This document shows positions 1 through 14,727 of a stretch of 32,641 nt of DNA, in pieces; the stretch's first letter is position 1, and every line of letters starts with the position of its first letter. The notes under the pieces were generated by a model that saw only the letters and a list, made by a program, of their open reading frames with translations, had not been told where the DNA came from and did not search any database. The position numbers and the translations under genes are program-made. Origin of the DNA: Bacteroidota bacterium (lineage in GTDB: Bacteria > Bacteroidota > Bacteroidia > Bacteroidales > VadinHA17); contig JANXXP010000042.1 in assembly GCA_025350595.1 (NCBI GenBank), positions 1 to 32,641 on the forward strand, in the 5' to 3' direction.

Positions 1-2729
1 CCTGATTCGATAATAATCCTTGCTGCAGAAATCTGCGGCCATTTAACCGGAATACCAAGCCATGGGTCGGTTGAGCCCCACCTGCCTGGTCCAATAAGAA
101 CATATCCTTTGGCCTCTTTAACAAACAAAGTGTTTAATTTCTCAATTTCAACGCCAACCTTAATATTATTTGCGGCACTAAATGATTCCGGTTTAACATA
201 AACCAGATCATAAATACCTTTAAAAACACCATTTCCAAGGGCTGATTCTGAATAAATTATTGTTTGATCTGTCGTAATATGATCAAGGTTAATAGAATGT
301 GCCTCTTCGGTATGAACAATTGGTCGGATCTGAAGAAAATTGAAAATTTTAGGAGTCCCGGCGGGGGTTTCAAGGTTAACCGCAAATTCAATTTCAATCG
401 GATTATTCATCTCCTGCTGTCCAAGTTCAAGCAGAGTGCTTAGTATCTCAGCCAAAGGAAAAGTCTTGTGCTGAAGTATGTTTGAGAAAGTAATTATTCG
501 TTTTCCTGTATGGATTATTCCATCACGCAAAACATTATTATTCATATCATAAGTCGAGGCGACATATTTCAGGGCTCCTTCGTTTTTCAAATCCTTAATA
601 TCAATTTTCAGGATGTTAACGCCATCATCAGTAGACGGCACGAAGCTGTTGATATTCATATCAAGTGCAAAAAATTCTTTTTGCGTATCTTTCAAAGCTG
701 TTTCAGGTGATGTAAGCTGGAGAATTTTTTTGGGGTGTTTAGGTGAAAATCTAAGAGATATTCCACCTTCTACGATCATCTTCCCGAGTCCAAAAGCAAT
801 GTTTGCAATACCATCCTCAGCCTTTTCAGAACCGATGGGATAATAATTTATTGATCTCGCAACCCCCGATAATGTCGGATAATATATCTCACCATGTCTG
901 TTCCCGCAAACTTCCTGCAGGACTATTCCCATTTTCTCTTCATCAATAACATTTGCTGTAGCTGTCATGTATGCTTTACTCGCTTTGTAATAAACCGAGG
1001 CATACACCTCTTTGATTGCATCTGATAACATCTTAACCATCTGCTTATTATCAGCAAGCCTGGGAATCATATAGGTCGAATAAATACCGGCAAAAGGCTG
1101 ATAATGTGAATCTTCCAATTTACTTGAAGAACGCACTGCAATAGGATAAGATCTGGAAACAGCAAGAAACGCATAAAAATCCTGGTACACATGTCCGGGA
1201 AGTTCCGCTTCCACAAACCTTTTAAGTATTTCCTCATCAGGCAGATCAGATAAGGCAATGGAATAAAGGTTATTCTGATCCATAAACTCATCGAAAATAT
1301 CTATACTTAAAACGACAGTACGCGGAATAGTAATCAGTACATCGGGAAACTTATTAAACAGTTTATTATTTTTAATAATCCTGTTAATGAATGCAAGACC
1401 TCTTGCTTTCCCACCTATTGAACCTTCACCAATACGCGAAAAGATCTGGTACTCATCAAAGCTTGTCTTATCAAACTTCGCGATTACCCCCCTGCCTTTC
1501 CCCAACCTGAAACTTGAGATTGCTACATAGAGAAATCTTCGCATCTCATCCATTGTGGCAAAATCTTCTTTTCTGATATACTTGAACATTTGCGCAACCG
1601 GAAAAAGAGCCCGGGCATTTAGCCATTTGGAAAAGTGGTTCCTGGTTGCATGGTACTCAAGGGTATTATCGGGTATTGTAAGGAGTTTTTGCTGCAGGCT
1701 TTGAAGATCAGTGGCAATAGCTATAGGCTCAAGGTTATCAGGATTCCTGAAGACAAATGGTCCGAATGCAAGATTCTGAATAATAAAATTCCTTAACTCC
1801 AGCGACAAAGATTTGGAATACTTATTAATGAAACCAGCTCCAAGGTCCTCAGCAATTTTCTTGTGTGTCAAACTCGATGATTGTATTAAAAACGGTACTT
1901 TATCATCGTCAGCCATAACCACTTTACATAACTCTATACCGGCACTCTCATCAGTTACATTATCTCTTTTGTAGCTGATATCGGAAATTACACCCAGTAC
2001 ATTGTATTTATATTTTTTGTAAAGGTCGAGAGCATCATTGAAATTGTTTGCAAGCAGAATTTTGGGACGTCCTCTCAGTTTAAGCATTCTCTGATGTTCA
2101 TTTAATGCTTCGCGCTGAAAATCAAGAGACTGGAGAAGAATTATCCTGTAGATATTGGGAAGATAAGATGAAATATATCTGATTGAGTTTTCGACCAGGA
2201 TAATTGCCTGTACACCAATATGTTCAATATCATAATCAGCATTCATTTTATCCTCAATCAGCTTAATTATTGCCAGAATAAGTGAAGTATCTCCAAGCCA
2301 GCAAAATACATAATCAATTGCACTAAGATCCTCTCCCTCGAGCCTTAAGGATACCTCCCTTGAAAAATAAGTAAGGACTACAATCGGGATGTTTTCGTAT
2401 TTCAACTTAATCCGTTTTGCGAGTGCAAAAACATCAGTTCCTTTCAGACTGAGCATTGAAATTACAAGATCAATATTGCCCTCTTCGAGTATTTTGAAGG
2501 CATCTACTGCATTATCAGTCTGAACAAATGTCGGAGGATAGCGGAGGTTAAGTGAAGCATATTCATTAAATATCTGCTCATCAATCCTCCCATCTTCTTC
2601 AAGCATGTAATTATCATAATTACTGCATATTACAAGAACACGATGTATTCGCTTCTGCATCAGAAGGTCAAAAGAAGTATCGGTAAAATCGTATTTCTGC
2701 AGGTCAAGTATTCCGTCGATAATGGCCAT
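1..2729 (-). CDS. Receiver-receiver-ATP-grasp (PPDK N-terminal-like) protein, copy B, 3' end cut by window edge
   Basis: An open frame starts with ATG at 2729 and runs off the window, giving 909 codons without a stop. Visible domains: a degenerate receiver-like fold (about residues 28-165); a second receiver (about 173-325) with E180-N181, acceptor candidate D250 (VISD), QSSS near 283 and K303; a linker; then the ATP-grasp of the pyruvate phosphate dikinase/PEP synthase N-terminus, with GGKARGL from 439, AVRSSS ending at 536 followed by ED, and LQIRP (Q800). GPGRWGS (880-886) and LGIPVKW open a C-terminal region truncated here. It is a paralog of the gene 11 bp upstream but lacks that gene's GAF domain, and the two are probably cotranscribed. 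No phospho-histidine domain or PEP barrel is visible. By comparison with the paralog, about 70-110 residues lie outside the window. Automatic labels such as PEP synthase would overstate it; its biochemical role is unknown. Confidence 0.93.
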   Translation of the reverse strand, partial: MAIIDGILDLQKYDFTDTSFDLLMQKRIHRVLVICSNYDNYMLEEDGRIDEQIFNEYASLNLRYPPTFVQTDNAVDAFKILEEGNIDLVISMLSLKGTDVFALAKRIKLKYENIPIVVLTYFSREVSLRLEGEDLSAIDYVFCWLGDTSLILAIIKLIEDKMNADYDIEHIGVQAIILVENSIRYISSYLPNIYRIILLQSLDFQREALNEHQRMLKLRGRPKILLANNFNDALDLYKKYKYNVLGVISDISYKRDNVTDESAGIELCKVVMADDDKVPFLIQSSSLTHKKIAEDLGAGFINKYSKSLSLELRNFIIQNLAFGPFVFRNPDNLEPIAIATDLQSLQQKLLTIPDNTLEYHATRNHFSKWLNARALFPVAQMFKYIRKEDFATMDEMRRFLYVAISSFRLGKGRGVIAKFDKTSFDEYQIFSRIGEGSIGGKARGLAFINRIIKNNKLFNKFPDVLITIPRTVVLSIDIFDEFMDQNNLYSIALSDLPDEEILKRFVEAELPGHVYQDFYAFLAVSRSYPIAVRSSSKLEDSHYQPFAGIYSTYMIPRLADNKQMVKMLSDAIKEVYASVYYKASKAYMTATANVIDEEKMGIVLQEVCGNRHGEIYYPTLSGVARSINYYPIGSEKAEDGIANIAFGLGKMIVEGGISLRFSPKHPKKILQLTSPETALKDTQKEFFALDMNINSFVPSTDDGVNILKIDIKDLKNEGALKYVASTYDMNNNVLRDGIIHTGKRIITFSNILQHKTFPLAEILSTLLELGQQEMNNPIEIEFAVNLETPAGTPKIFNFLQIRPIVHTEEAHSINLDHITTDQTIIYSESALGNGVFKGIYDLVYVKPESFSAANNIKVGVEIEKLNTLFVKEAKGYVLIGPGRWGSTDPWLGIPVKWPQISAARIIIES

Positions 2730-2740
2730 GATTTGTGTTT

Positions 2741-5700
2741 TTATTTATTCATAGAGATAACTGCCATCCCTTTTTTCCCATCCATCCGAATAAGGAGTGG
2801 CTTTTCAAATCTGACATGTTTGAAAAATTTACCACTCTCAATAACTTTTTGATTTTTAAGCTTTTCCCAGTCAACTATTCCATCCTGAGTCCCCTGGTTT
2901 ACAGAAAAATAGCCAACATTCATTGAGGTTACATTATGAAAAAAGTGAGAACCAAGAGATGCATCCAAATGATAATTTGGTAAACTAACTTCAACAATTA
3001 CTTTCGCATTTGATATCTGAGGCCAAGCAACAGGTATTCCCAGAAATCTGTCTTTAGTTCCCCATCGCCCCGGACCCAGAAGAACATATTTGCGGTTTTC
3101 ATTCAGCATCTTTTCGTTCATACGGTCAATTTCACCTGCCATCTCATTGGTAAGCATGTTGTTGAATTTTTCCGGTTCTATAAAAATAATATCTGTAATA
3201 TCACTAAGTACTCCGTTCCCCATGCTTCTTTTTGTAACAAGTATGGTCTCATCTGTATAAATACTTTCCGGATCAATGGTATAACCTGCACCACTTCCGA
3301 CAAGTGGTTTTATCTGTAGAAGATAGAACGAGGTAGAGCCATTATTATCTTTTTTCAGGTCTACTGCAAATTCAATCTCAACCGGTGTTCCAAAAGCTTC
3401 AGTTACAACGTCAAGTACAACTCTCAGTGTGGATGCGAGAGGCATGTATTCGTATTTCAATATGTCGGCGAAATTAATAACACGCGGACCAGTGGCATCC
3501 AGTCCGGGAATAATTGTATCATTATCAGTGTTTAAAACCGAGGCGGAATGTATTATTGTACCGTGCTTTTCCGCCTCACTGATATCTAATGTTACAAGTC
3601 CGGCATTTTCACCTTCAAGAAGGTTCAGTTCTTTTTTTGCCATGTCGACCGCATAGAAACGGACCTGGGAGTTTTTATAAAGATCTTTCAGAGATATAAT
3701 ATCAAGTGACGGGTATGCAGGAGAAAACCAGAACGCGCTCTCTCCTTCAACAACATACTGACCCAATCCAACTGCCAGAACAGCAAACCCTTCCTGTGGA
3801 GTCATGTGAGCAACCGGGTAAAAATTGAATGATTGAGCCGTACCACTGATGTGAGGATAAAATGCATTTTCAAACCTGTTTCCAACAACTTCCTGAATAA
3901 CCACAGCCATCTTCTCCTGCTCAACTTTGTAGTTAATTGCGTCGAAATATGTACGGGCATTTCTCGAATAGATAGAAGAAAATACCAGTTTAATTGCTTC
4001 CGATAATTGCCTTAGCCTGATTTCCGGATCAGGATCGTTATTTGGAAGAAGATATGTTCCAAATATACCGGAAAATGGCTGACTCATCGAATCTTCAAAC
4101 AAACTCGATGATCGCACAGCCAGTGGCTTGTTAATGAGCCTTATAAATATCCTCAGCTTTTTCTCAAGGGTATAACTCAGGCTTCCATCAAAAAATAGTT
4201 TCTGAAGAACATCAAAATCTTTTTCTTCTTTTACCCTATCCCACAGATGGTTACGTTCCATGAACATGTCAAATTCATCTGTTCCGATTATAGCAGTTAC
4301 CGGTGTTTTGATATTAATACCGGGAAGGAGACGGCCGAGTTCAAAGCTGTATATAAGGGTATTTACAAATGCTAATCCACGACCTTTTCCTCCAAGTGAA
4401 CCTCCTGAGAGACTTACAACATTAGTTTCATCTATAACGGCAGATTCCTCAAAATTAACCACCTTCCCTTTATTCATCTCCCGGCGTCTTTTTCGGATAA
4501 TGTCGATGAGGAACTCACGCAGATCTTTAAGACTATCAAAATCTGAAACCCTTATCGGATTTATCATCTTTGCAATTTTCACCTCTCCCCTTGCCATCAG
4601 CCATAATGAGAAGTGGTTCTTCATTGAATGATAAACGAGAGAATCTTCAGGGATGGTCTGGAGGTAGGCTTCAAACTCCTTCATCGATTTTGCCACGGCA
4701 ATCTGACGACCTTTAGTGTCTCTGTAAACAAAATGGCCAAAACCCAGGTAATAATTAATGAATGATTTGAGGTCCTGAAGAAGACTTTCAGAGTTTTTAT
4801 TTATGAAATTTGACTTTAAAAGATGTGCATATTTTGCGTTTTCCGGATCTGATGACTGAAGCACGGATGGAAGATTCGGAAGGTCTTCTTTGACATGCTT
4901 TATAAGTTCGAAACCGGCAGTGTCGTGTAAAACCCCATTCATTGGAAACCGCATATCAGAAATAATGCATAACAGACTGTCTTTGTATTTGTTGTAGATG
5001 ATAATCGCATCTTCATAACTTGAAGCTAGTAAAACCTTTGGCCGGGCTCTGAGTTTCAATACTTTATATAATTCATCTGTTGAGACATCCTCGATAAGGT
5101 TTTTAGTCTGCTCCATCACAAGGGTATAGAGCATTGGAAGATAACTTGAATAGTATTCAGCTGAATCCTCAACAATCAGAATCACCCTGGTAAGACCTTT
5201 CTTCGTATCATTATCAACATTTACCTTATCCTCGAGGAGTTTCACCATAGCAAAAAACATCTTCGACTCACCGGTCCATACAAAATAATTATCAAAAGGT
5301 AACCCAAGTGATTTTTGCTTTTTTACAAAGGCTACATCACCGGAACTATTCAGCAAAAGGAATGTTGGGATGTATGGATATTTCTCTTTTATTTTTTTAC
5401 AAAGTAATATCGGGCTTTCTTTATCCACTCCGATCATTATTATTATCATATCATAATGCCTGACTTTAAGCCGGCTAAAAGCCTCTTCCTCTCCCGAAAC
5501 TCCGGTAACCCTTGGAATTGAAGTCAGGCTCATCTGATAATATTCTCCCAGCATAAGGTCAGAAAAACGACCTTCACCTTCAATGGAATATGCGTCATAA
5601 AGATTGGCGACGAGAAGTATCTCTTTTACTTTGAATGGCATTAGATCATGAAAAACATCCCTCTCTGCATTATGTCTATCGAGGAAGGTCTGGAGCAGTT

Positions 5701-6187
5701 TCCTGCTTGAGGTCTCATGTTTATCGTCTGTATCAGTATTGGAGACTTTAGCCATCCGGATAATATCTCTGGCTTTATAACTGTTTATATAGCCAGTTAA
5801 AAGGCTCCCTATATTCTGAATAAGATCCCGCTCTTCCTTCAGAAAAGGGCCCTCATTCTCAGTATTGAATTCCGTCGTATAAAAAATTTCAATAGATCCC
5901 TTTTCCTCATCGATTGTAGAAAATTCCTGAATCATTTTCCAGGAAGATTCATTAAAGTCGGCCGATTCAAACTCTTTTCCCATATATCGTATACGAGCGA
6001 CTGTATATTCGGGATATTGCCAGGCGGCAGGAAGAAGGAGTACGATTTGCTGAAGAGACTCCTCAATTGGCTTTCCCTCTTTAAGGATGGAAGTAGTATG
6101 GTTGATACATGCCAGTTCTTTTAGCCGTTCCTGCTGATCATGAAGTAAACGGCTATATTCTCGACTATCATGCTTCAATTCATCCAT
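2741..6187 (-). CDS. GAF-receiver-receiver-ATP-grasp (PPDK N-terminal-like) protein, copy A
   Basis: The protein has 1148 residues. Order of domains: a coiled-coil-like start and a GAF-type sensor domain (about 15-140, with the EGPFLKEERDL signature); a degenerate receiver (about 188-325) without the acidic pocket; a second receiver (about 333-485) with E340-D341, acceptor D411 (ISDM), S445/S446 and K464; then an ATP-grasp like the PPDK/PEP synthase N-terminus, with GGSLGGKG (595-602), VRSSS (691-695), ED (698-699) and LQIKP (Q958). A C-terminal region carries GPGRWG (1038-1043) and GSHFF with H1081. The open frame extends upstream to a TTG at 6241, but that codon lies inside a terminator hairpin, so ATG 6187 is preferred. 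No mobile His domain or PEP-binding barrel follows. This suggests a signalling or ATP-dependent phosphotransfer protein rather than an enzyme making PEP. The ATP-grasp and receiver assignments are secure; the substrate is unknown. Confidence 0.93.
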   Translation of the reverse strand: MDELKHDSREYSRLLHDQQERLKELACINHTTSILKEGKPIEESLQQIVLLLPAAWQYPEYTVARIRYMGKEFESADFNESSWKMIQEFSTIDEEKGSIEIFYTTEFNTENEGPFLKEERDLIQNIGSLLTGYINSYKARDIIRMAKVSNTDTDDKHETSSRKLLQTFLDRHNAERDVFHDLMPFKVKEILLVANLYDAYSIEGEGRFSDLMLGEYYQMSLTSIPRVTGVSGEEEAFSRLKVRHYDMIIIMIGVDKESPILLCKKIKEKYPYIPTFLLLNSSGDVAFVKKQKSLGLPFDNYFVWTGESKMFFAMVKLLEDKVNVDNDTKKGLTRVILIVEDSAEYYSSYLPMLYTLVMEQTKNLIEDVSTDELYKVLKLRARPKVLLASSYEDAIIIYNKYKDSLLCIISDMRFPMNGVLHDTAGFELIKHVKEDLPNLPSVLQSSDPENAKYAHLLKSNFINKNSESLLQDLKSFINYYLGFGHFVYRDTKGRQIAVAKSMKEFEAYLQTIPEDSLVYHSMKNHFSLWLMARGEVKIAKMINPIRVSDFDSLKDLREFLIDIIRKRRREMNKGKVVNFEESAVIDETNVVSLSGGSLGGKGRGLAFVNTLIYSFELGRLLPGINIKTPVTAIIGTDEFDMFMERNHLWDRVKEEKDFDVLQKLFFDGSLSYTLEKKLRIFIRLINKPLAVRSSSLFEDSMSQPFSGIFGTYLLPNNDPDPEIRLRQLSEAIKLVFSSIYSRNARTYFDAINYKVEQEKMAVVIQEVVGNRFENAFYPHISGTAQSFNFYPVAHMTPQEGFAVLAVGLGQYVVEGESAFWFSPAYPSLDIISLKDLYKNSQVRFYAVDMAKKELNLLEGENAGLVTLDISEAEKHGTIIHSASVLNTDNDTIIPGLDATGPRVINFADILKYEYMPLASTLRVVLDVVTEAFGTPVEIEFAVDLKKDNNGSTSFYLLQIKPLVGSGAGYTIDPESIYTDETILVTKRSMGNGVLSDITDIIFIEPEKFNNMLTNEMAGEIDRMNEKMLNENRKYVLLGPGRWGTKDRFLGIPVAWPQISNAKVIVEVSLPNYHLDASLGSHFFHNVTSMNVGYFSVNQGTQDGIVDWEKLKNQKVIESGKFFKHVRFEKPLLIRMDGKKGMAVISMNK

Positions 6188-6223
6188 TAACGATAGCAGG
6201 GTTTGATCAATTGTTAAAATTAC

Positions 6224-6260
6224 TAAAAAAATTAACCGCAAAGGTCTTTTGCGGTTAATT
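6224..6260 (-). terminator. Rho-independent terminator of korAB
   Basis: A perfect 13-bp stem (6230-6242 pairing with 6248-6260) encloses a 5-nt loop. Read on the minus strand it is followed by a run of T (6229-6225). It begins 21 bp after the korB stop codon, so it ends the korA-korB transcript. It separates that operon from the two ATP-grasp genes and makes the TTG at 6241 an unlikely start for the downstream gene. Read-through remains possible. Confidence 0.88.
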
Positions 6261-6281: not shown

Positions 6282-7304
6282 TTATTCAACTACCCAGGTA
6301 GATCCGCTCATAAGCAGATCATCCATGCATTTTATTTTAGCTGTTTTTTGAATTTCCTGTATCTGGTCTTCGACCAGATTGTCATAAGAAGGCCCGGGAA
6401 CCGATCTTATAACCCCCAAAGCAACAGGATATTCCGGAAAACTCATATTAGCAAGCATATATTGTATCCCGGGATTTGGCTCCATCGCATCATGGACCAG
6501 AATATTCTTTACAGTGATCCCGTTCTCACCAAGTTTCACAACTCTCAGTTTCAATCCATCGAGAATGAGTCCTTTGTCATTCTCTTTACCAAAAATCATT
6601 GGTTGGCCCTGTTTCAAAATAAGAGTTTTGTCATCCCGAACTTCCTTACCAGCTACTGTATCATGTATTCCGTCATTGAAAATGACACAATTCTGTAGCA
6701 CTTCAATTACCGATGTACCTGTATGTTTGGCAGCTTCAATATAGATCTGTACAGAAAGTGCAACATTTGTATCAATTGTCCGTGCGAAAAATTTACCTCT
6801 GGCACCTATCACAAGTTCGCCAACAGAAAATGGTTCTTCAACTGTACCAAAAGGAGATGTTTTTGTAACAAGTCCTTTTGCAGACGTTGGTGAATACTGC
6901 CCTTTGGTAAGTCCGTATATCTCGTTGTTAAACAGTATGATATTAAGATCTACATTTCGTCTTATTGCATGAATAAAGTGATTACCCCCGATAGCAAGGG
7001 CATCGCCATCGCCGGTTATCTGCCAGACGGATAATTCAGGATTTGCGGTTTTTACACCGGAGGCAATTGCTGAAGCACGACCATGAATACTATGAAAGCC
7101 ATAAGTATCCATGTAATAAGGAAACCTTGAAGAACAGCCAATTCCTGAAATAAATGCGAACTTCTCTTTAGATATTCCCAATTCTGCGAGAGCTCTCTGT
7201 ACTGAACTCAAAACCGCATGATCGCCACAACCCGGGCACCATCTGACTTCCTGATCGCTTTTAAAATCTTTAGCAGTATATTTATTTACCAGTGTTTCAG
7301 CCAT
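6282..7304 (-). CDS. korB: 2-oxoglutarate (2-oxoacid):ferredoxin oxidoreductase, beta subunit
   Basis: This is the thiamine-diphosphate and iron-sulfur subunit (340 aa) of a CoA-dependent 2-oxoacid:ferredoxin oxidoreductase, which oxidatively decarboxylates 2-oxoglutarate to succinyl-CoA with reduction of ferredoxin. WCPGCGDH (C23, C26), GIGCSSR (C57) and a later C206 match the cluster ligands of the family. GDGDALAIGGNH (98-109) followed by NNEIYGLTKGQ is the TPP/Mg site. The open frame could extend upstream to 7430, but that would run through the end of korA. ATG 7304 follows the korA stop by one base and has a good Shine-Dalgarno, so it is chosen. Two-subunit enzymes of this type in Bacteroidota are usually called KorAB; the exact 2-oxoacid cannot be proved from sequence. 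Confidence 0.95.
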   Translation of the reverse strand: MAETLVNKYTAKDFKSDQEVRWCPGCGDHAVLSSVQRALAELGISKEKFAFISGIGCSSRFPYYMDTYGFHSIHGRASAIASGVKTANPELSVWQITGDGDALAIGGNHFIHAIRRNVDLNIILFNNEIYGLTKGQYSPTSAKGLVTKTSPFGTVEEPFSVGELVIGARGKFFARTIDTNVALSVQIYIEAAKHTGTSVIEVLQNCVIFNDGIHDTVAGKEVRDDKTLILKQGQPMIFGKENDKGLILDGLKLRVVKLGENGITVKNILVHDAMEPNPGIQYMLANMSFPEYPVALGVIRSVPGPSYDNLVEDQIQEIQKTAKIKCMDDLLMSGSTWVVE

Positions 7305-7305
7305 T

Positions 7306-9150
7306 TTATTTATCCTCCAGCATTTTAGTGCATTTTTCTTTAATATTATTTGTAGTAAAAGGTACTCCCTGGACTTTATTAAGTTGTTCGTATCTGAACT
7401 CCTGATGTTTAATCCGCAGATAGTCTGCAAATTGTCCCAGATTTAATTCACATACAAGTATCTTCTTAAATTTACTGAACACATCCTTCACATTTTTAGG
7501 CAAAGGATTGATGTAATTGAAATTGACAAGGCTCACCTTATGCCCTTCTGTCTGCAATTCACGCACTGCAGTCAGGAGATAACCATATGATCCACCCCAG
7601 CCAACAACCAGAATATCACCTGAATTGTCCCCATAAGTAACCAGATCCGGAATTTCATTGGCAACCCTTGCAACTTTTTCAGCCCTTAAATTAACCATAA
7701 ACTCATGGTTTTCAGGAACATAAGAAACGGTTCCTTTAATTGTTTTCTCAAGACCGCCAATCCTGTGTTCCAAACCAGGGGTGCCTGGAACTGCCCATGA
7801 TCTGGTTAGTTTTTCCTCATCACGCTTATATGGCAAAAATGGAATCTCACTTCTGTCAGCAAATGGAGGGTTAATTTTCGGAAGATCTTTCATACTTGGG
7901 ATTCTCCATGGTTCTGTACCATTAGCTAGATAGCTGTCTGAAAGAAGAAGAACGGGTGTCATGTGTTCCACTGCAATTCTTGCTGCTTCAAAAGCAAAAT
8001 GGAAGCAATCAGAAGGTGTGCTGGCTGCGATAACAACAACCGGGCATTCCCCGTTACGTCCATACAGAGCCTGCATGAGGTCGGCCTGTTCAGTCTTGGT
8101 TGGAAGTCCGGTTGAAGGCCCACCTCTCTGAACGTTGACAATTACTATCGGAAGTTCTGCCATAACCGCCAGTCCAATGGCTTCTGACTTTAGTGCCAGT
8201 CCGGGGCCGGAGGTAGAAGTTATTGCAAGGTTTCCGGCGAAGCTGGCTCCAAGTGATGTACAAATACCTGCTATTTCATCCTCAGCCTGGAAACTTTTAA
8301 CTCCAAGATCTTTACGGGCAGCTAATTCTTCCAGTATCCCTGTAGCTGGTGTAATTGGATACGAACCTATAAAAATTTTCAACCCCGATTTCTCAGATGC
8401 AGCTAAAAATCCCCAGGCTGTAGCTGCGTTCCCTGCGATATTGCGATAAGTGCCTTTCGCTATTGATGCAGGAAGAATTTTGTATGTAGACGATAAGGCT
8501 TCAATTGTTTCAGCATAATAATATCCGGCACGCAGTGCAACTTTATTTGCTTCTGCCATACCAGGCTTATTATGAAACTTCTTTTCAAAATATTTCTCAG
8601 TATAGTCAAGTTTACGATCGAAAAGCCAGTAAACCATTCCCAGGGCAAACATGTTTTTTGTCCTTAATACAGACTTTGGATCAAGTCCAAAATCTTTTAA
8701 AGCCTCTTTCACCAAAGCAGATATAGGAGCTGCTATAATATTGTAACCATCAAGTCTTTCTTCTTTAATCGGATCTTTTGAATAACCTGCCTTCTCTATA
8801 TTTTTTTCAGTAAAATTCCCTTCATCATAAATTACCGTACCACCGGTTTTAATCCATTTGGCGTTGGCTTTAATAGCAGCCGGATTCATTGCCACCAGAA
8901 CATCAGAATAATCTCCCGGAGTATTTATTTCCGAATGTCCCAAATGAACCTGAAAGCCTGAAACACCGCCTACGGTTCCCTGTGGAGCACGAATCTCAGC
9001 AGGATAATCTGGAAAGGTTGACAAATCATTACCGAATAAGGCTGCGGTATCGGAGAACAAGGTACCAGTAAGCTGCATACCATCTCCCGAATCACCCGAA
9101 AACCGGATGACAACTTCTTCTCTTTCGATAACACGTGATCTTTTACCCAT
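7306..9150 (-). CDS. korA: 2-oxoglutarate (2-oxoacid):ferredoxin oxidoreductase, fused gamma-alpha subunit
   Basis: This subunit (614 aa) pairs with KorB. The N-terminal part (about 12-190) is the gamma domain, with GDSGDGMQLTG at 19-29. The alpha, pyrimidine-binding domain follows, with YPITP at 264-268, an AEDEIAG motif and the stretch STSGPGLALKSE. A C-terminal domain II-like region includes VGWGGSYGYL. The gamma-alpha fusion is the normal arrangement in this subfamily. No ferredoxin-like delta subunit is encoded beside it, so electrons must go to a ferredoxin encoded elsewhere. The start MGKRSR at 9150 fits the usual family N-terminus. A weak promoter candidate lies 60 bp upstream. In anaerobic Bacteroidota this enzyme can link the TCA branch to ferredoxin in either direction. 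Confidence 0.95.
   Translation of the reverse strand: MGKRSRVIEREEVVIRFSGDSGDGMQLTGTLFSDTAALFGNDLSTFPDYPAEIRAPQGTVGGVSGFQVHLGHSEINTPGDYSDVLVAMNPAAIKANAKWIKTGGTVIYDEGNFTEKNIEKAGYSKDPIKEERLDGYNIIAAPISALVKEALKDFGLDPKSVLRTKNMFALGMVYWLFDRKLDYTEKYFEKKFHNKPGMAEANKVALRAGYYYAETIEALSSTYKILPASIAKGTYRNIAGNAATAWGFLAASEKSGLKIFIGSYPITPATGILEELAARKDLGVKSFQAEDEIAGICTSLGASFAGNLAITSTSGPGLALKSEAIGLAVMAELPIVIVNVQRGGPSTGLPTKTEQADLMQALYGRNGECPVVVIAASTPSDCFHFAFEAARIAVEHMTPVLLLSDSYLANGTEPWRIPSMKDLPKINPPFADRSEIPFLPYKRDEEKLTRSWAVPGTPGLEHRIGGLEKTIKGTVSYVPENHEFMVNLRAEKVARVANEIPDLVTYGDNSGDILVVGWGGSYGYLLTAVRELQTEGHKVSLVNFNYINPLPKNVKDVFSKFKKILVCELNLGQFADYLRIKHQEFRYEQLNKVQGVPFTTNNIKEKCTKMLEDK
7314..7318 (-). promoter_or_regulatory. 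Ribosome binding site of korB
   Basis: GGAGG on the minus strand lies nine bases before the ATG at 7304, inside the last codons of korA. It fixes the korB start and suggests translational coupling of the two subunits. Clear Shine-Dalgarno sequences are uncommon in Bacteroidota, so it stands out. Confidence 0.7.
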
Positions 9151-9483: not shown

Positions 9484-10284
9484 TTAACTCCAGATATCGG
9501 CTTTCTTCAGGTTTATTTCACCTTCAAAAAACATTTTGGCAATTTTCTCAAAATAGTCGGTGTAGTCAGAAATAAAGAATTGATCTTTTACTATTCCGGA
9601 ATCGTTCAGAAGATGGTTTTTCTCCAAAGTCTCACGAAGGATCATCGACACAATCCTTGCTGAATCAATTACTTCAACATTAAAATTAAAAAACTTACTG
9701 ATCTGATTTTTTATAATAGGATAATGAGTACATCCGAGAATTAAAGCTTGTATTCCGGATAGTGATTCATTCGTCAGATAACTGCGGATAATAGCATTAC
9801 TAATGTCGTCGAAGATAAATCCCTCCTCTATCATTGGCACAAGCAATGGAGTAGCCATTGAAATAACTGAAGTAGACGGAGACTTTTCTTTTATCTTATT
9901 TTCATAAGTGCATGAACTTATAGTCCTCTTTGTTCCAATGACACCGATTTTATTAAAATGCCTTGTGCCCAAGTAATTAACAATAGGGTCAATTACGTCA
10001 ATAAGAATTGTCTTATCCTTAAATTCCTCTTTAAGAGAGTCAAATGCAGATGCTGAGGCAGTGTTACATGCAACAAGAACAACTTTTGAATTGTGTTCCA
10101 GCAGAAATTCAGTAATACGATGAGAATAAAACCGTATTGATTCAGCTGATTTATCTCCGTAGGGCAGGTGAGCGGTATCACCAAAATAGATAAGGCTTTC
10201 GTCTGGTAAAATCTGCTTAATTGCGTGTGCAACTGTCAGACCTCCGACACCTGAATCGAAAATTCCGATTGGCTGTTCTTTCAC
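9484..10284 (-). CDS. murI: Glutamate racemase
   Basis: This 266-aa cytoplasmic, cofactor-independent racemase interconverts L- and D-glutamate to supply D-Glu for the peptidoglycan stem peptide. The N-terminal IGIFDSGVGGLTV and the paired catalytic cysteines, C73 in ACNTAS and C185 in GCTHYP, are intact, and the length is normal. It sits last in the envelope-biogenesis cluster but after a strong terminator, so it is either expressed by read-through from ompH or from its own promoter. No clear TAnnTTTG element is visible in the short gap. Confidence 0.97.
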   Translation of the reverse strand: MKEQPIGIFDSGVGGLTVAHAIKQILPDESLIYFGDTAHLPYGDKSAESIRFYSHRITEFLLEHNSKVVLVACNTASASAFDSLKEEFKDKTILIDVIDPIVNYLGTRHFNKIGVIGTKRTISSCTYENKIKEKSPSTSVISMATPLLVPMIEEGFIFDDISNAIIRSYLTNESLSGIQALILGCTHYPIIKNQISKFFNFNVEVIDSARIVSMILRETLEKNHLLNDSGIVKDQFFISDYTDYFEKIAKMFFEGEINLKKADIWS

Positions 10285-10298
10285 TTTATTTATATATT

Positions 10299-10334
10299 AA
10301 AAAAAATGACCATCTGCCAGCTGGCGGATGGTCA
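10299..10334 (-). terminator. Rho-independent terminator after ompH
   Basis: A 14-bp stem (10307-10334, one G-U pair, essentially no spare loop) is followed on the minus strand by eight T (10306-10299). It lies between the ompH stop and the murI start, and so splits the bam/ompH transcript from murI. Confidence 0.85.
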
Positions 10335-10353
10335 CCGTAATAAAATATCTGAA

Positions 10354-10875
10354 TTATTTTAATCCAAGTTTTGCTTTAGCCAGGGCCATAACATTTGTGC
10401 TCTTTGTCTCATCAAAATACAGAAGAGCTCCTTTTGCCACGTCGAAAATATAGAGAAAACCATTTTCTTTACCAACATCTTTTATCGCTTTGTCAACTTT
10501 AGCATAAACAGGCTGGAAGAATTCTACCTGCTTGTCCTGCAATTGCTGTTGAGCATTTGTCTGAAAATCCTGAATTCTTTTGTTCATATCAACCAGTTCC
10601 TGTTCCTTTGTTTTTTTAACAAGGTCGGTAAGGTTTTTGCTCTCCTTATTATAAGCATCACTCTTATTATTCAATTCAACCGACATAAGTTCCAGGGCAT
10701 TAATAAGTTCCTTGCGGAATTTCTCGAGTTTTACATTTGCTGAGTCAAACTCCGGTAATGCCTGAATGAGTTGATCACTGTTGACATGACCAAACTTAAA
10801 TGTTTGAGCCATTGCATTATGGCCAGCCAGTGAAACAAAAATTGTAAGAGCCGCTATTCCAATAAATCTTTTCAT
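10354..10875 (-). CDS. OmpH/Skp-family periplasmic chaperone (first of two paralogs, distal)
   Basis: A secreted coiled-coil protein of 173 aa from the start at 10875. The open frame continues ten codons upstream, but MKRFIGIAAL begins a clear signal peptide with likely cleavage after AMA, before QTFKFGHV. The FGHVNSDQLIQALPEF start, the long charged helical middle and the C-terminal YIFDVAKGALLYFD stretch are typical of OmpH/Skp proteins, trimeric chaperones that hold unfolded outer-membrane proteins. It lies 40 bp after its paralog and downstream of bamA, as in Porphyromonas and other Bacteroidota. Confidence 0.92.
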   Translation of the reverse strand: MKRFIGIAALTIFVSLAGHNAMAQTFKFGHVNSDQLIQALPEFDSANVKLEKFRKELINALELMSVELNNKSDAYNKESKNLTDLVKKTKEQELVDMNKRIQDFQTNAQQQLQDKQVEFFQPVYAKVDKAIKDVGKENGFLYIFDVAKGALLYFDETKSTNVMALAKAKLGLK

Positions 10876-10915
10876 TTTAGTAATTTTATTAAACAATAAG
10901 TGCAAAAGTAATTAA

Positions 10916-11431
10916 TTAATTTTTATAACCTAATTTTTGCAGAACCTGGTCGCTGATGTCAAATTTAGGGTTGGCAAACAGGATGTTACCTCCTGCAGAC
11001 GTATCAAAAATAACAGCATAAGATCCTTCAACTGCTATCTCTTTTATAGCTTTTAATATTTCATCCTGGATTGGCTTAACCAACTCTTCTCTTTTTTTGA
11101 AAAGTTCGCCTTCCATTCCAAAGTACTTATTCTGAAGATCTTTCATTTCCTTCTCTTTGACAATAATTGCTTCCTCTCTTTTTGTCTTCATATCCTGAGA
11201 TAGAAGAACTGTTTCATTCTGATATGATTTATACATTTGTTCAACAACAGCATAACCATCAGCAACTTCTTTTTCCCATTGTTTCGAAAGCTTATCAAGC
11301 TGATCCTGTGCGGTAGTAAAAGCAGGTATATTCTTCCTGATATATTCGGAATCAACAAAAGCATATTTCTGAGCAGTGGCCAATGCCGAAGTCAGAATAA
11401 ACATTACTAATAAAACACCTATTTTCCTCAT
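10916..11431 (-). CDS. OmpH/Skp-family periplasmic chaperone (second paralog, next to bamA)
   Basis: A 171-aa protein with a signal peptide (MRKIGVLLVMFILTSALATA, cleavage before QKYAFVD). The mature part begins YAFVDSEYIRKNIPAF, followed by a long charged coiled coil and a C-terminal YAVIFDTSAGGNILF element, all of the OmpH/Skp type. It starts 25 bp after the bamA stop and is surely cotranscribed. It differs strongly from its neighbour, so the duplication is old and the two chaperones may have different clients. Confidence 0.93.
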   Translation of the reverse strand: MRKIGVLLVMFILTSALATAQKYAFVDSEYIRKNIPAFTTAQDQLDKLSKQWEKEVADGYAVVEQMYKSYQNETVLLSQDMKTKREEAIIVKEKEMKDLQNKYFGMEGELFKKREELVKPIQDEILKAIKEIAVEGSYAVIFDTSAGGNILFANPKFDISDQVLQKLGYKN

Positions 11432-11456
11432 GATTATAAATTTAATTTTTACATAA

Positions 11457-13973
11457 TTAGAACTGCTGACCTATAACAAATTGGAATTGTCCGTGATTTG
11501 CATTTGAATATGTGCCAGGTTCAGGAACAGCATCGAAACCATATCCCCAGTCAACTCCGAGTAATCCAAACATAGGGAGGTTTGCCCTTACACCGAAGCC
11601 TGCAGCCCTGTTCATCTTGAATGGATTGAATTCACTTAGCTGATACCAGGCTCGTCCTGTTTCAAGAAATGCTGTACCATATATAGTAGCCTGCGGGTTA
11701 AGTGATACAGGGTATCTGAGTTCAAATGTTATTTTTGAATATACGTTTCCTGAAGGAGAGCCTCTTTTTGGATCATTTGGTGTAAGTGATCCATCGATAT
11801 AACCCCTTTGCGAAATTATTTCACGTCCATAGAAGCTGTAACCTGTCATCCCGCTTCCTCCAACATAAAAGTTCTCAAATGGAGATGGGCCGATGTCATT
11901 GTTATAATGCCCGAGGTAACCAAAAGCGAACTTGGCATTGAGAACCATTTTATCATTTTTAGTTATAGGGTAATAATAATCTGCTTTAAATGTCCATTTG
12001 TGAAATTCAATCCATTTATATTTTACCTCATCCGGAGCATCCTTCATATTTTGTCCGCTTAACAATGAATAAGGAGGAGTCGCCTGAACAGCCAGGGTAA
12101 ATGAAGATCCGCTTCTTGGATAAATAAGGTTTGGAGCTGTTGAGAATCTGGTCAGTTTTGCTGTAAGACTCAACAGGTTTGATTGTCCGTTTTCAAAAAG
12201 AAACCTGTAAACATTATAGTTATTGAGGTTGTACTTTTGATAACTTAGTTCCCCATATAAGGAGAAATAGTCATCGGGCCATGTAAGTCTTTTCCCTAAA
12301 CCAACTGTTGCCCCATCAATAATCATAGACTGCAGTCCATCCTCACCTTTCTTTTTCCCGTTTGTCATGAGCGATCTGAAAAGAGATACTGTAAATGAAT
12401 TCGGGTTTTTCCCACCCAGCCAGGGTTCAATAAATGAAATATTATATGACTGATAAATTCGTCCGTTTGACTGAGCTCTGATGCTTACTGACTGTCCATC
12501 ACCTGATGGGTAAGGTTTCCACTCCTTGAGATCAAAAAAGTGCCTCATTGCGAAGTTATTGAACCTCACCCCCACTGTACCAACAAGCATTCCGGCTCCC
12601 CAACCGCCTGATACTTCGAATTGGTCGTTCGCCTTTTCTTCAAGTTTATAAAGCAGATCAACAGTTCCATTAGTAACATCAGGAAGTGGAGTAGGGTTTA
12701 TCTTCTCCGGGTCAAAATGGCCGAGAACCCCTAATTGCCTGATAGAACGCATTATTTTATCCTTACTGAAAAGATCGCCTGGCATTGTATAGAGCTCACG
12801 ACGGGCGACATGTTCATTGGTTCTGGTATTACCTGCAATAATAACATTATTAAGGTAAGCCTGATCTCCTTCATATATTCTGATCTCAAGATCGATTGAA
12901 TCGTGATCAACTTTAGCTTCAACCGGAGTAAGCCGTGAAAAAAGGTAACCATTGTCCTGATATAATGAGCTTACTGCATCCTGCGCTCCAGCAGAACCAT
13001 TAAGCCTGTCATTAATAAGTGATTGATTATAAACTGTTCCTTTCTTAACATTAAAAACTTTCTCAAGATCATTCTTCCTGTAAACACTGTTTCCCACCCA
13101 GCCAACATTCCTGAGGAAGTACTGTTTCCCTTCATCAATTCTTATCTTAAGACCGATGCGGTTTTCAGAAATTGTATATATTGAATCGGAAAGAATGGTA
13201 AAATCCTTAAATCCGTTATCATTATAAAAGGTGGTTAGTTTTTCTTTATCAGTTTCAAATTTCTCACTGATGAATTTTGAAGCACGGAAAAAGTTAAGAT
13301 TTTTTTTCTTCGTGTCTTTTAATTGTCTGCGAAGCTTTTTAGTTTCGAAAAATTCATTTCCGACAAACGAAATCTCTCCAATTTTGACTTTTTCATTCTT
13401 TTTCACATTGATACTAAGAATAACATTATTGGGCTGATCAGGATCCATTTTCTGAATAAAATCAACCTCAGTATTTAAATACCCTTTTTCAATAAAATGG
13501 TCCTTAATTATTTTTTTTGCGCTATTAAGTAAATATGCAGTTATCTGGGAACCTACAGGAAGATTAATCTTTTTTATAAGATCATCTGTTTCTGTTTTTC
13601 TCATTCCATTGTATTTGACTGAGGAAACTCTTGGCCTCTCCTGCAGGAAAATATCAAGATAAACAGAATCTGATATAATTTTAGCAATTGAAATTCTAAC
13701 ATCAGAAAATAAACCCTGCTGCCATAATTTTTGTACAGCAGTTGTAATAGCATCTCCGGGAATACTTACTTCTTGTCCTAATCTAAGACCTGAAAGACCA
13801 ATGAGAGCATTTGTATCGAGAAACCGGACTCCGGTAACTGAAACTCCGCCAATAACATAATCAGTGGACCCCATGAAATCGACTATCTCCTGCTTCTCCT
13901 GAGCAGAAAGAGAGAGACTCACAAGAGTCAGGAATATTGCTATAAAAGCCAGCTTAAATCTTCTAATCACCAT
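11457..13973 (-). CDS. bamA: Outer membrane protein assembly factor BamA (Omp85)
   Basis: The central barrel of the BAM complex, inserting beta-barrel proteins into the outer membrane; 838 aa from ATG 13973. The open frame reaches 14042, but that part overlaps uppS, while MVIRRFKL starts a signal peptide ending at LSLSA before QEKQ. Several POTRA repeats follow from about residue 38 (for example VIGGVSVTGVRFLD), and the barrel starts near residue 455 (GGWGAGMLVGTVGVRF). The loop-6 motif appears as QRGY after a short insertion typical of Bacteroidota. The protein ends in phenylalanine (FVIGQQF), as expected for a barrel. It starts 7 bp after uppS, and the two ompH genes follow. Confidence 0.96.
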   Translation of the reverse strand: MVIRRFKLAFIAIFLTLVSLSLSAQEKQEIVDFMGSTDYVIGGVSVTGVRFLDTNALIGLSGLRLGQEVSIPGDAITTAVQKLWQQGLFSDVRISIAKIISDSVYLDIFLQERPRVSSVKYNGMRKTETDDLIKKINLPVGSQITAYLLNSAKKIIKDHFIEKGYLNTEVDFIQKMDPDQPNNVILSINVKKNEKVKIGEISFVGNEFFETKKLRRQLKDTKKKNLNFFRASKFISEKFETDKEKLTTFYNDNGFKDFTILSDSIYTISENRIGLKIRIDEGKQYFLRNVGWVGNSVYRKNDLEKVFNVKKGTVYNQSLINDRLNGSAGAQDAVSSLYQDNGYLFSRLTPVEAKVDHDSIDLEIRIYEGDQAYLNNVIIAGNTRTNEHVARRELYTMPGDLFSKDKIMRSIRQLGVLGHFDPEKINPTPLPDVTNGTVDLLYKLEEKANDQFEVSGGWGAGMLVGTVGVRFNNFAMRHFFDLKEWKPYPSGDGQSVSIRAQSNGRIYQSYNISFIEPWLGGKNPNSFTVSLFRSLMTNGKKKGEDGLQSMIIDGATVGLGKRLTWPDDYFSLYGELSYQKYNLNNYNVYRFLFENGQSNLLSLTAKLTRFSTAPNLIYPRSGSSFTLAVQATPPYSLLSGQNMKDAPDEVKYKWIEFHKWTFKADYYYPITKNDKMVLNAKFAFGYLGHYNNDIGPSPFENFYVGGSGMTGYSFYGREIISQRGYIDGSLTPNDPKRGSPSGNVYSKITFELRYPVSLNPQATIYGTAFLETGRAWYQLSEFNPFKMNRAAGFGVRANLPMFGLLGVDWGYGFDAVPEPGTYSNANHGQFQFVIGQQF

Positions 13974-13980
13974 TATTTCA

Positions 13981-14727
13981 TTATTTTTCCAAAACTTGAT
14001 CACTCGTTTTTCCAAATCTTCTTTCTCTTTTCTGGAAGTCAATTATAGCATTATAAAAGTCCTCCTTACCAAAATCAGGCCAAAGTTTATCTGTATAGTA
14101 TAATTCAGTATATGCAATCTGCCACAACAGAAAGTTACTTATTCTCAACTCACCACTTGTCCTGATCAATAATTCAGGATCGGGGATACCATATGTAGTG
14201 AGGTACTTTTCGAAAACCTCTTCACAAATTGAATCAGGTTTAAGTTTTCCAAGAGCTACGTCAGCAGACAACCTTCTGGCAGCTTCAGTAATTTCCCAAC
14301 GTGAACTGTAACTTAAAGCAACCACAAGATTAAGTCCGGTACCTATTGATGTAACTTTGATAGTTTCATTCAGCCTTTCCTTTACATCCACGGAAAGCCT
14401 GTTTAAATCTCCGATTGCCTTCAGTTGAATATTATTTTTCAAGAGAGTTTCAGTCTCGTTATTAAGAGATTGTACCATTATTCCCATTAACGCATTTACC
14501 TCATCATCTGGTCTTCCCCAATTTTCATTTGAAAATGCGTAGAGAGTAAGATATTTGATTCCTAATTCCGCTGCAGTTTCAATCACTTCTCTTAACGCTT
14601 TCACTCCCTGCTGGTGTCCAAAGATTCTTTCAAGGCCCCTTTGTCTTGCCCATCTGCCATTTCCATCCATAATTATTGCCACATGTGAAGGCAATTTATC
14701 TGTATTTATCTGTTCTCTTAACAGCAT
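13981..14727 (-). CDS. uppS: Undecaprenyl diphosphate synthase (cis-prenyltransferase)
   Basis: A 248-aa cytoplasmic enzyme that condenses isopentenyl diphosphate onto farnesyl diphosphate to make the C55 carrier lipid for peptidoglycan and O-antigen. IIMDGNGRWARQRG (catalytic D21), the GHQQGVKALR stretch, YAFSNENWGRP and the C-terminal ELLIRTSGELRISNFLLWQ block are all present. The length is normal. It lies 3 bp after the porG-like stop and 7 bp before bamA, a tightly packed operon. This adjacency of uppS and bamA is conserved widely. Confidence 0.97.
   Translation of the reverse strand: MLLREQINTDKLPSHVAIIMDGNGRWARQRGLERIFGHQQGVKALREVIETAAELGIKYLTLYAFSNENWGRPDDEVNALMGIMVQSLNNETETLLKNNIQLKAIGDLNRLSVDVKERLNETIKVTSIGTGLNLVVALSYSSRWEITEAARRLSADVALGKLKPDSICEEVFEKYLTTYGIPDPELLIRTSGELRISNFLLWQIAYTELYYTDKLWPDFGKEDFYNAIIDFQKRERRFGKTSDQVLEK

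Follow-up and report, generated by a model that had tools for sequence, protein, structure and literature searches.

VadK (Rv1127c) of Mycobacterium tuberculosis is described as a truncated pyruvate phosphate dikinase (PPDK) in which the phosphoenolpyruvate (PEP) domain is missing; His422 is its site of autophosphorylation, and methylcitrate-cycle enzymes encoded near it are reported to interact with it and to be tuned by it (PMC13400623). The small-molecule dikinases HpeHI, CreHI, PpsAB and rifampin phosphotransferase (RPH) also contain an ATP-grasp domain that feeds a swivel histidine without a PEP barrel (PMC12167813). Two adjacent genes of a Bacteroidota bacterium (Bacteroidales, VadinHA17), here called copy A and copy B, encode proteins in which an ATP-grasp of this type is fused to receiver domains. 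They are located on a stretch of 32,641 nucleotides (GenBank assembly GCA_025350595.1, contig JANXXP010000042.1, hereafter the window), which is one complete contig (G000:C190:1-32641) of a 4.3-Mb genome in 396 contigs; among the matches listed in a contig scan, the closest named relatives are Bacteroidales metagenome-assembled genomes. The chances appear evenly balanced that both proteins are receiver-gated, self-phosphorylating, dikinase-type histidine kinases of the VadK kind, acting at the 2-oxoglutarate/glutamate node. Computation reveals the domain order, the ATP-grasp motifs, an invariant histidine in a swivel-like predicted fold, receiver 2 and a linkage to glutamate dehydrogenase (GDH) and to the 2-oxoacid oxidoreductase KorAB.

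ATP-grasp and C-terminal domain

A first-pass annotation, made from the sequence alone, had recognised two adjacent paralogs, A complete and B partial, and this is borne out by the open frames at 2741-6187 and 3-2729 on the minus strand. The frame of copy A spans 2741-6241, with a likely ATG at 6187 from which its residues are numbered. An intergenic gap of 11 bases separates it from copy B, which is truncated by the contig end. The two genes contain the following features:

2741..6187, minus strand: copy A, 1148 aa, with GAF-like region, receiver 1 (degenerate), receiver 2, helical linker, ATP-grasp and predicted cryptic swivel domain
3290..4456, minus strand: ATP-grasp of copy A (PPDK_N, Pfam E=2.4e-35)
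2744..3280, minus strand: C-terminal domain of copy A, predicted swivelling phospho-histidine domain (model and alignment; outside Pfam)
2945..2947, minus strand: codon of H1081, the invariant His of G-x-H-F-F, predicted phospho-histidine
5738..6139, minus strand: GAF-like sensor region of copy A, residues 17-150 (secondary structure in the model; fold label not confirmed)
5213..5632, minus strand: receiver 1 of copy A, pseudo-receiver by Pfam and alignment
4730..5194, minus strand: receiver 2 of copy A (model and alignment)
4955..4957, minus strand: codon of D411, predicted phospho-acceptor Asp of receiver 2
4466..4693, minus strand: helical linker of copy A (DUF5752 match of 24.6 bits, barely above the cut-off of 23)
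3..2729, minus strand: copy B, first 909 aa; the contig stops before its His, and complete orthologs have about 990 aa
2250..2648, minus strand: receiver 1 of copy B (degenerate)
1755..2216, minus strand: receiver 2 of copy B (E180, D250, S284 and K303 retained; the second acidic residue is Asn)
312..1457, minus strand: ATP-grasp of copy B (PPDK_N, Pfam E=5.9e-37)
3..296, minus strand: initial part of the predicted swivel domain of copy B (cut)

The ATP-grasp was said to keep the motifs of PPDK and PEP synthase, and it does so in both copies: PPDK_N is matched in each, the GGK, VRSS-ED, E and Q motif residues are present, and K601, R692, E939 and Q958 do not vary among the 58 full relatives. 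An AlphaFold model of copy A (59 sequences; predicted local distance difference test, pLDDT, 83.8) was compared with solved structures by using VIA-align. Its ATP-grasp aligned with RPH (5hv1) at Z 26.3 and a root-mean-square deviation (rmsd) of 2.6 over 281 residues, while PEP synthase (2ols) gave Z ~26 (rmsd 4.9, 365 aligned) and HpeI (9goj) Z 19.5 (rmsd 5.8, 287 aligned); RPH and HpeI belong to the nearest ATP-grasps of known structure. A phmmer search of copy A against the PDB returned a single chance row. As the first-pass annotation had stated, the PEP barrel is absent by Pfam from copy A and from the available part of copy B (no PF02896 match), and also from the model of copy A, where the chain terminates after a swivel-like domain. 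A PF02896 barrel and a PF00391 swivel were each found once in this genome, both in one separate, complete PPDK, in agreement with the annotation's view that A and B are not PEP synthases. PEP synthase proper is rejected because the chain lacks a barrel and the genome search revealed none to spare.

The C-terminal 179 residues of copy A, modelled alone, form a well-predicted domain (pLDDT 91.3; predicted template modelling score 0.89). Among 998 chains compared with it by VIA-align, the nine top rows are His domains of RPH, swivels of PPDK and the extra C-terminal domain of pyruvate kinase, with Z from 7.0 to 6.1, rmsd of 2.9-4.2 and 103-118 aligned residues; 5fbu gave Z 7.0 (rmsd 3.4, 113 aligned) and 2fm4, the isolated phosphoryl carrier of PPDK, Z 6.9 (rmsd 3.7, 116 aligned). 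The lower rows comprise TRiC/GroEL apical domains, LD-carboxypeptidase, S66 peptidases, GCPII, aconitase, putative cyclases and Enzyme I, and most of these belong to the same swivelling class of folds. The full model of copy A is collinear with the ATP-grasp and swivel of 2ols (578-1148 on 4-467) and with PPDK 1dik (574-1148 on 8-511; Z 18.6, rmsd 4.7, 346 aligned). Nine of its 15 rows to PEP synthase, PPDK, RPH or HpeI extend past residue 1090, and six end with the ATP-grasp, two of these being single-domain chains. In a profile comparison (hhalign) of the family core, i.e., ATP-grasp plus C-terminal domain, with E. coli PpsA (probability 97, E 8e-11), core positions 25-404 align with PpsA 38-380, and the alignment thus continues beyond the ATP-grasp to residue 380, which we take to be the start of the swivel.

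H1081, the His of G-[ST]-H-F-F, is present without exception in 59 of 59 homologs and in all 22 members of a more diverse set, in which a G-R-W-G loop is equally invariant. In the model, a strand and a Gly-containing loop lead into a helix that starts with H1081, and the phospho-His of PPDK likewise opens a helix after a strand and a Gly loop.

Several observations weigh against a swivel assignment. In none of the 22 diverse members does this domain match the Pfam swivel PF00391 or any other Pfam family (a single row, at E 0.03, is far below its cut-off), and the swivel motif GG-x-T-S/C-H-A is absent from the family. Foldseek returned no match at E<=0.001 for the domain alone, its best rows being unrelated enzymes, and hhalign gave a probability of 0.3 for the domain alone against the swivel profile and of 10 for the core against a PPDK alignment, with only a weak ATP-grasp stretch. 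A Z of about 7 lies within the range reached by models without a clear relative, as the aligner itself notes; the ninth swivel row, at Z 6.1, stands level with one for TRiC at Z 5.7; and H1081 is equated with the phospho-His by topology and not by residue-level superposition. A PDB sequence search with the domain profile yielded chance rows only. Nevertheless, since fold, domain order, the sequence link at the domain start and the histidine concur, the predicted structure makes it very probable that the C-terminal domain is a swivelling phospho-histidine domain like those of PPDK and RPH. The first-pass annotation had denied the presence of a phospho-histidine domain, which is probably wrong; it had also named a hidden one, revealed by structure prediction, as grounds for refutation, and the prediction favours a swivel-like fold with an invariant His in the C-terminal ~180 residues. 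Judging from these models, the PEP barrel is probably the only PPDK module truly missing from A and B.

Receivers, sensory regions and spread of the family

Two receiver-type domains per copy had been proposed, and both can be traced, by different means. Receiver 1 passes the Pfam cut-off of 30.2 bits in copy B only (35.1 bits, against 18.7 in copy A). At its phospho-Asp position, as placed by motif, 52 of 58 relatives carry Met and none carries Asp; by its sequence, receiver 1 has lost the phospho-acceptor and is a pseudo-receiver, a degeneration that the first-pass annotation had missed. Receiver 2 escapes Pfam and is recognised from the AlphaFold model, which matches many solved receivers at Z 12.8-14.0 (VIA-align). 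The acidic pair, phospho-Asp, Ser/Thr and Lys of a receiver are all present: E340, D411, S445 and K464 are shared by all 58 full relatives, and D341 is kept in 54 and replaced by Asn in four. For the N-terminus of copy A, the label GAF could not be confirmed, as there is no Pfam GAF match at E<=1; the model displays an alpha/beta secondary structure that is GAF-like. The Pfam search that the annotation had recommended agreed with it for PPDK_N in both copies and for the lack of PEP-utilizers and barrel domains, supported the receiver family in copy B only and gave no support for GAF.

The same core is joined to various N-terminal regions in other members of the family:

receiver-receiver plus core, about 990 aa
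A type: GAF-like region, receivers and core
L050:3711-8363: three GAF-like repeats before the receivers in a 1550-aa A-type protein
core only (ATP-grasp plus C-terminal domain), about 580 aa
L177:4572-7769, L178:6646-9837 and L180:4446-7646: GAF-like region (by eye), core and nucleotidyltransferase, about 1060 aa
L063:6291-8927: N-terminus resembling KaiC/RecA by eye, no obvious Walker A, joined to the same core, 878 aa

Because the core is preceded in other members by a GAF-like region, by one that looks KaiC-like by eye or by nothing at all, and core-only and GAF-like members do without receivers, the receivers are read as input modules. The ~1060-aa members end in a pol-beta-type domain, with NTP_transf_2 above its cut-off in L177 and L180 (both scanned with Pfam), and those in L177 and L178 adjoin a 580-aa core-only member; it is conceivable that they are regulators combining phospho- and nucleotidyl transfer. 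L063 is a distant member from within the window's genus. In a quick tree of 74 rows, the A and B types form separate groups, and the nucleotidyltransferase and L063 types stand apart.

Scanning genome contigs with two degenerate patterns gave at least 590 confirmed stretches of the family, of which the best 80 loci were kept. Gut and environmental Bacteroidota commonly carry the family, and the genera among these 80 include Bacteroides, Phocaeicola, Parabacteroides, Prevotella, Alistipes and Lutibacter; records under the labels Candidatus Delongbacteria, Chlorobiota and Acetofilamentum account for some of the loci. A plasmid search with a distant core found four records, three of them from Bacteroidota genera and one from Ilyobacter (25% of the query covered), and a search among relatives gave a match in 37 of 41 genomes, the window's own included. 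The one annotated record consulted, from Parabacteroides, names the family member only as 'PEP/pyruvate-binding domain-containing protein' and places it beside gdhA. The family is real and conserved, neither ordinary nor an artefact. The tandem of A and B orthologs exceeds chance and recurs in 12 of 15 fetched loci of the window's genus.

Glutamate dehydrogenase and KorAB neighbourhoods

Neither GDH nor KorAB was noticed in the first-pass annotation. GDH is encoded in 33 of the best 80 loci (directly adjoining in 24) and a 2-oxoacid:ferredoxin oxidoreductase (KOR) in eight (adjoining in seven); 39 loci have either partner and two from outside the window's genus, L072 and L087, have both, in the order korB-A-B-x-GDH. 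These 80 loci are the most similar ones, and many end at contig boundaries. A further measure is provided by an even draw of 198 genomes across the phylum, 34 of which contain the domain; excluding the window's own genome, this sample consists of 33 genomes with 59 family domains. When the 67 strong GDH matches are considered, GDH lies within 5 kb of 46 and within 10 kb of 49 of the 59 family genes, and 27 of the 33 genomes have a strong match at most 10 kb from a family gene. Counting all matches to PF02812, a family that also covers Leu/Phe/Val dehydrogenases, raises these numbers to 47, 50 and 28; the recount on strong rows sets aside G137, which rests on a partial 29-bit match. Random placement would give fewer than 0.9 genomes with a nearby GDH, compared with the 27 observed, and of 67 canonical PF00391 genes (PPDK/PtsI) in the same genomes, used as a control, none is near GDH.

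The association extends to distant members of the family. L178, L179 and L182-L185 adjoin a GDH that is 32-34% identical to the first GDH type; L180, L181 and L190 show no GDH in the fetched stretch, and that of L177 ends at a contig boundary. Three further clusters, with three GDH genes each, favour signal input to the family: between their two family copies they encode a PAS/HisKA_3 histidine kinase together with a response regulator of the LuxR type:

L186:3867-16485, kinase/regulator cluster
L187:2904-16807, kinase/regulator cluster
L188:3646-16312, kinase/regulator cluster

Other data argue against a functional tie to these enzymes, or leave its nature ambiguous. Six of the 33 genomes have no strong GDH match nearby, and in the window's genome the two GDH matches are located on a contig, C346, that has no PF01326 match:

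G054 (46 kb), G172 (17 kb), G137 (partial match, 3.4 kb), and G236, G149 and G200 (other contigs): genomes without a strong GDH match near the family gene
L227 (G000:C346:1-19000), 7973-8359 and 10780-11163: GDH matches of the window's genome, close together and away from the family genes

Moreover, full-length KOR occurs within 10 kb of none of the 59 family genes, though 31 of the 33 genomes list one, and the whole context fits a regulatory kinase and a metabolic enzyme of the same pathway alike.

In the window, KorAB directly precedes the family genes on the minus strand, in the order korA (9150-7306), korB (ending at 6282), A (6187-2741) and B (2729-3):

7306..9150, minus strand: KorA-like 2-oxoacid:acceptor oxidoreductase alpha subunit (TIGR03710, 650.5 bits against a cut-off of 482.75)
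6282..7430, minus strand: KorB-like 2-oxoacid:ferredoxin oxidoreductase beta subunit

The true start of korB is probably downstream of the listed TTG, because its orthologs have about 340 aa and the frame overlaps korA; the substrate of this KOR is assigned by family name alone. Flanks were fetched for 15 of the 22 genomes of the same genus with a match. B occurs alone in the three loci without the tandem, and korB precedes A or B at a distance of no more than about 205 bases in 14 of the 15; in the fifteenth (L036), three genes on the opposite strand, covering 3 kb, lie between korB and the family gene. Among 13 fetched loci from other families of the order, several of them short contigs, two have korAB. 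With no full-length KOR near the 59 genes of the phylum sample, KOR as a general partner is not borne out there, and the link is local to the lineage of the window.

The order bamA, two OmpH-like genes, murI, korA and korB (window 9484-14042) is retained in most of the fetched same-genus loci. Near the other contig end, 30324-32633 encodes, by eye from its translation, a BlaR/MecR1-type membrane peptidase-like protein, which also has carboxypeptidase-regulatory-like and repeated TonB-C-like regions.

Proposed function, rival explanations and known systems

In the kinase reading favoured above, the ATP-grasp would phosphorylate the invariant His of the cryptic C-terminal domain, and this phospho-His, or the phospho-state of the protein, would replace the route through the PEP barrel and control enzymes of the 2-oxoglutarate/glutamate node, in a positive or negative sense. 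The candidate targets are GDH in most sampled genomes and KorAB in the genus of the window. Inputs would come from receiver 2, which a conventional histidine kinase would phosphorylate and which would gate the enzyme, and from the GAF-like region of copy A, with receiver 1 serving as a pseudo-receiver; a relay between receiver and His may run in either direction. The bolder version, a new class of signalling histidine kinases with a PEP-synthase engine, in which the receiver Asp gates the reaction or receives the relay, and which directly controls both GDH and KorAB, is unlikely in our estimation. If true, it would constitute a carbon-nitrogen switch of Bacteroidota at the 2-oxoglutarate node and a candidate cause of the reversible in vivo inactivation reportedly described long ago for Bacteroides GDH, on which a literature search returned no paper.

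The strongest competitor, a possible though doubtful one, is a metabolic dikinase that passes the phosphoryl group from the His to a small metabolite of the glutamate/2-oxoacid node, with the receivers switching the enzyme on or off. The proximity of its ATP-grasp to those of RPH (5hv1) and HpeI (9goj) is in line with this, as is the precedent of HpeHI, a barrel-free dikinase that phosphorylates small molecules (PMC12167813), and the conserved G-P-G-R-W-G loop, which the canonical swivel motif lacks, might bind a substrate. Yet no extra domain for a second substrate is present between or after the ATP-grasp and the swivel-like domain, the minimal 580-aa form consists of these two domains alone, and the varied sensory N-termini favour regulation. 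The first-pass annotation had instead envisaged a signal-controlled transferase or ligase with an unknown acceptor. Its fusion of receivers and ATP-grasp stands, and literature searches, which revealed no characterisation of such a fusion or of its GDH link, agree with its remark that the fusion is not functionally characterised. A ligase or transferase that dispenses with a phospho-His step and acts via an acyl-phosphate on that acceptor is improbable, because the structural evidence and the invariant His favour a phospho-His intermediate. The invisibility of the His domain to sequence-profile methods and Foldseek speaks for such a ligase; the structural domain order makes it unlikely, and PPDK-type ATP-grasps are known to act on a His domain.

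A catalytically dead scaffold, which senses ATP and the receiver state and binds GDH or KOR, would be compatible with the genomic context, as any regulator would. The invariance of the checked ATP-grasp motif residues and of the His is unexpected for a dead enzyme, and we consider the scaffold quite improbable. A split PEP synthase or PPDK, with its barrel on a partner protein, is the least credible reading and highly improbable: split dikinases exist, HpeHI being one (PMC12167813), but the sole barrel found in the genome belongs to the complete PPDK, so that PEP formation is already served. The company of GDH gives the family a first testable function, and the neighbourhood of GDH and 2-oxoacid oxidoreductase suggests an uncharacterised switch on carbon-nitrogen metabolism.

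Compared with PEP synthase and PPDK, A and B share the order of ATP-grasp and predicted swivel, but they lack the PEP barrel and any PF00391 match and have receivers in front. HpeHI, CreHI, PpsAB and RPH have a second substrate-binding domain, whereas none is visible in the A or B chain (a partner protein was not sought). Like response regulators with an enzymatic output, they place an intact receiver 2 ahead of an enzyme; unlike them, receiver 1 is a pseudo-receiver, and no output domain of this kind was found in the literature searches. The closest resemblance is to VadK, with an ATP-grasp, a predicted phospho-His domain, no PEP barrel and metabolic enzymes as neighbours. The differences from VadK are the swivel-like domain that Pfam does not recognise, the receivers and the GDH/KorAB context, known here from sequence and models. 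PPDK-type phospho-His enzymes and the VadK precedent were known, while the predicted cryptic swivel, the proposed receiver control and the GDH/KOR linkage are new. The family offers a catalytic domain outside the recognition of Pfam and, with VadK as the first example, possibly a second one of a PEP-forming enzyme that has come to regulate metabolism encoded by its neighbouring genes.

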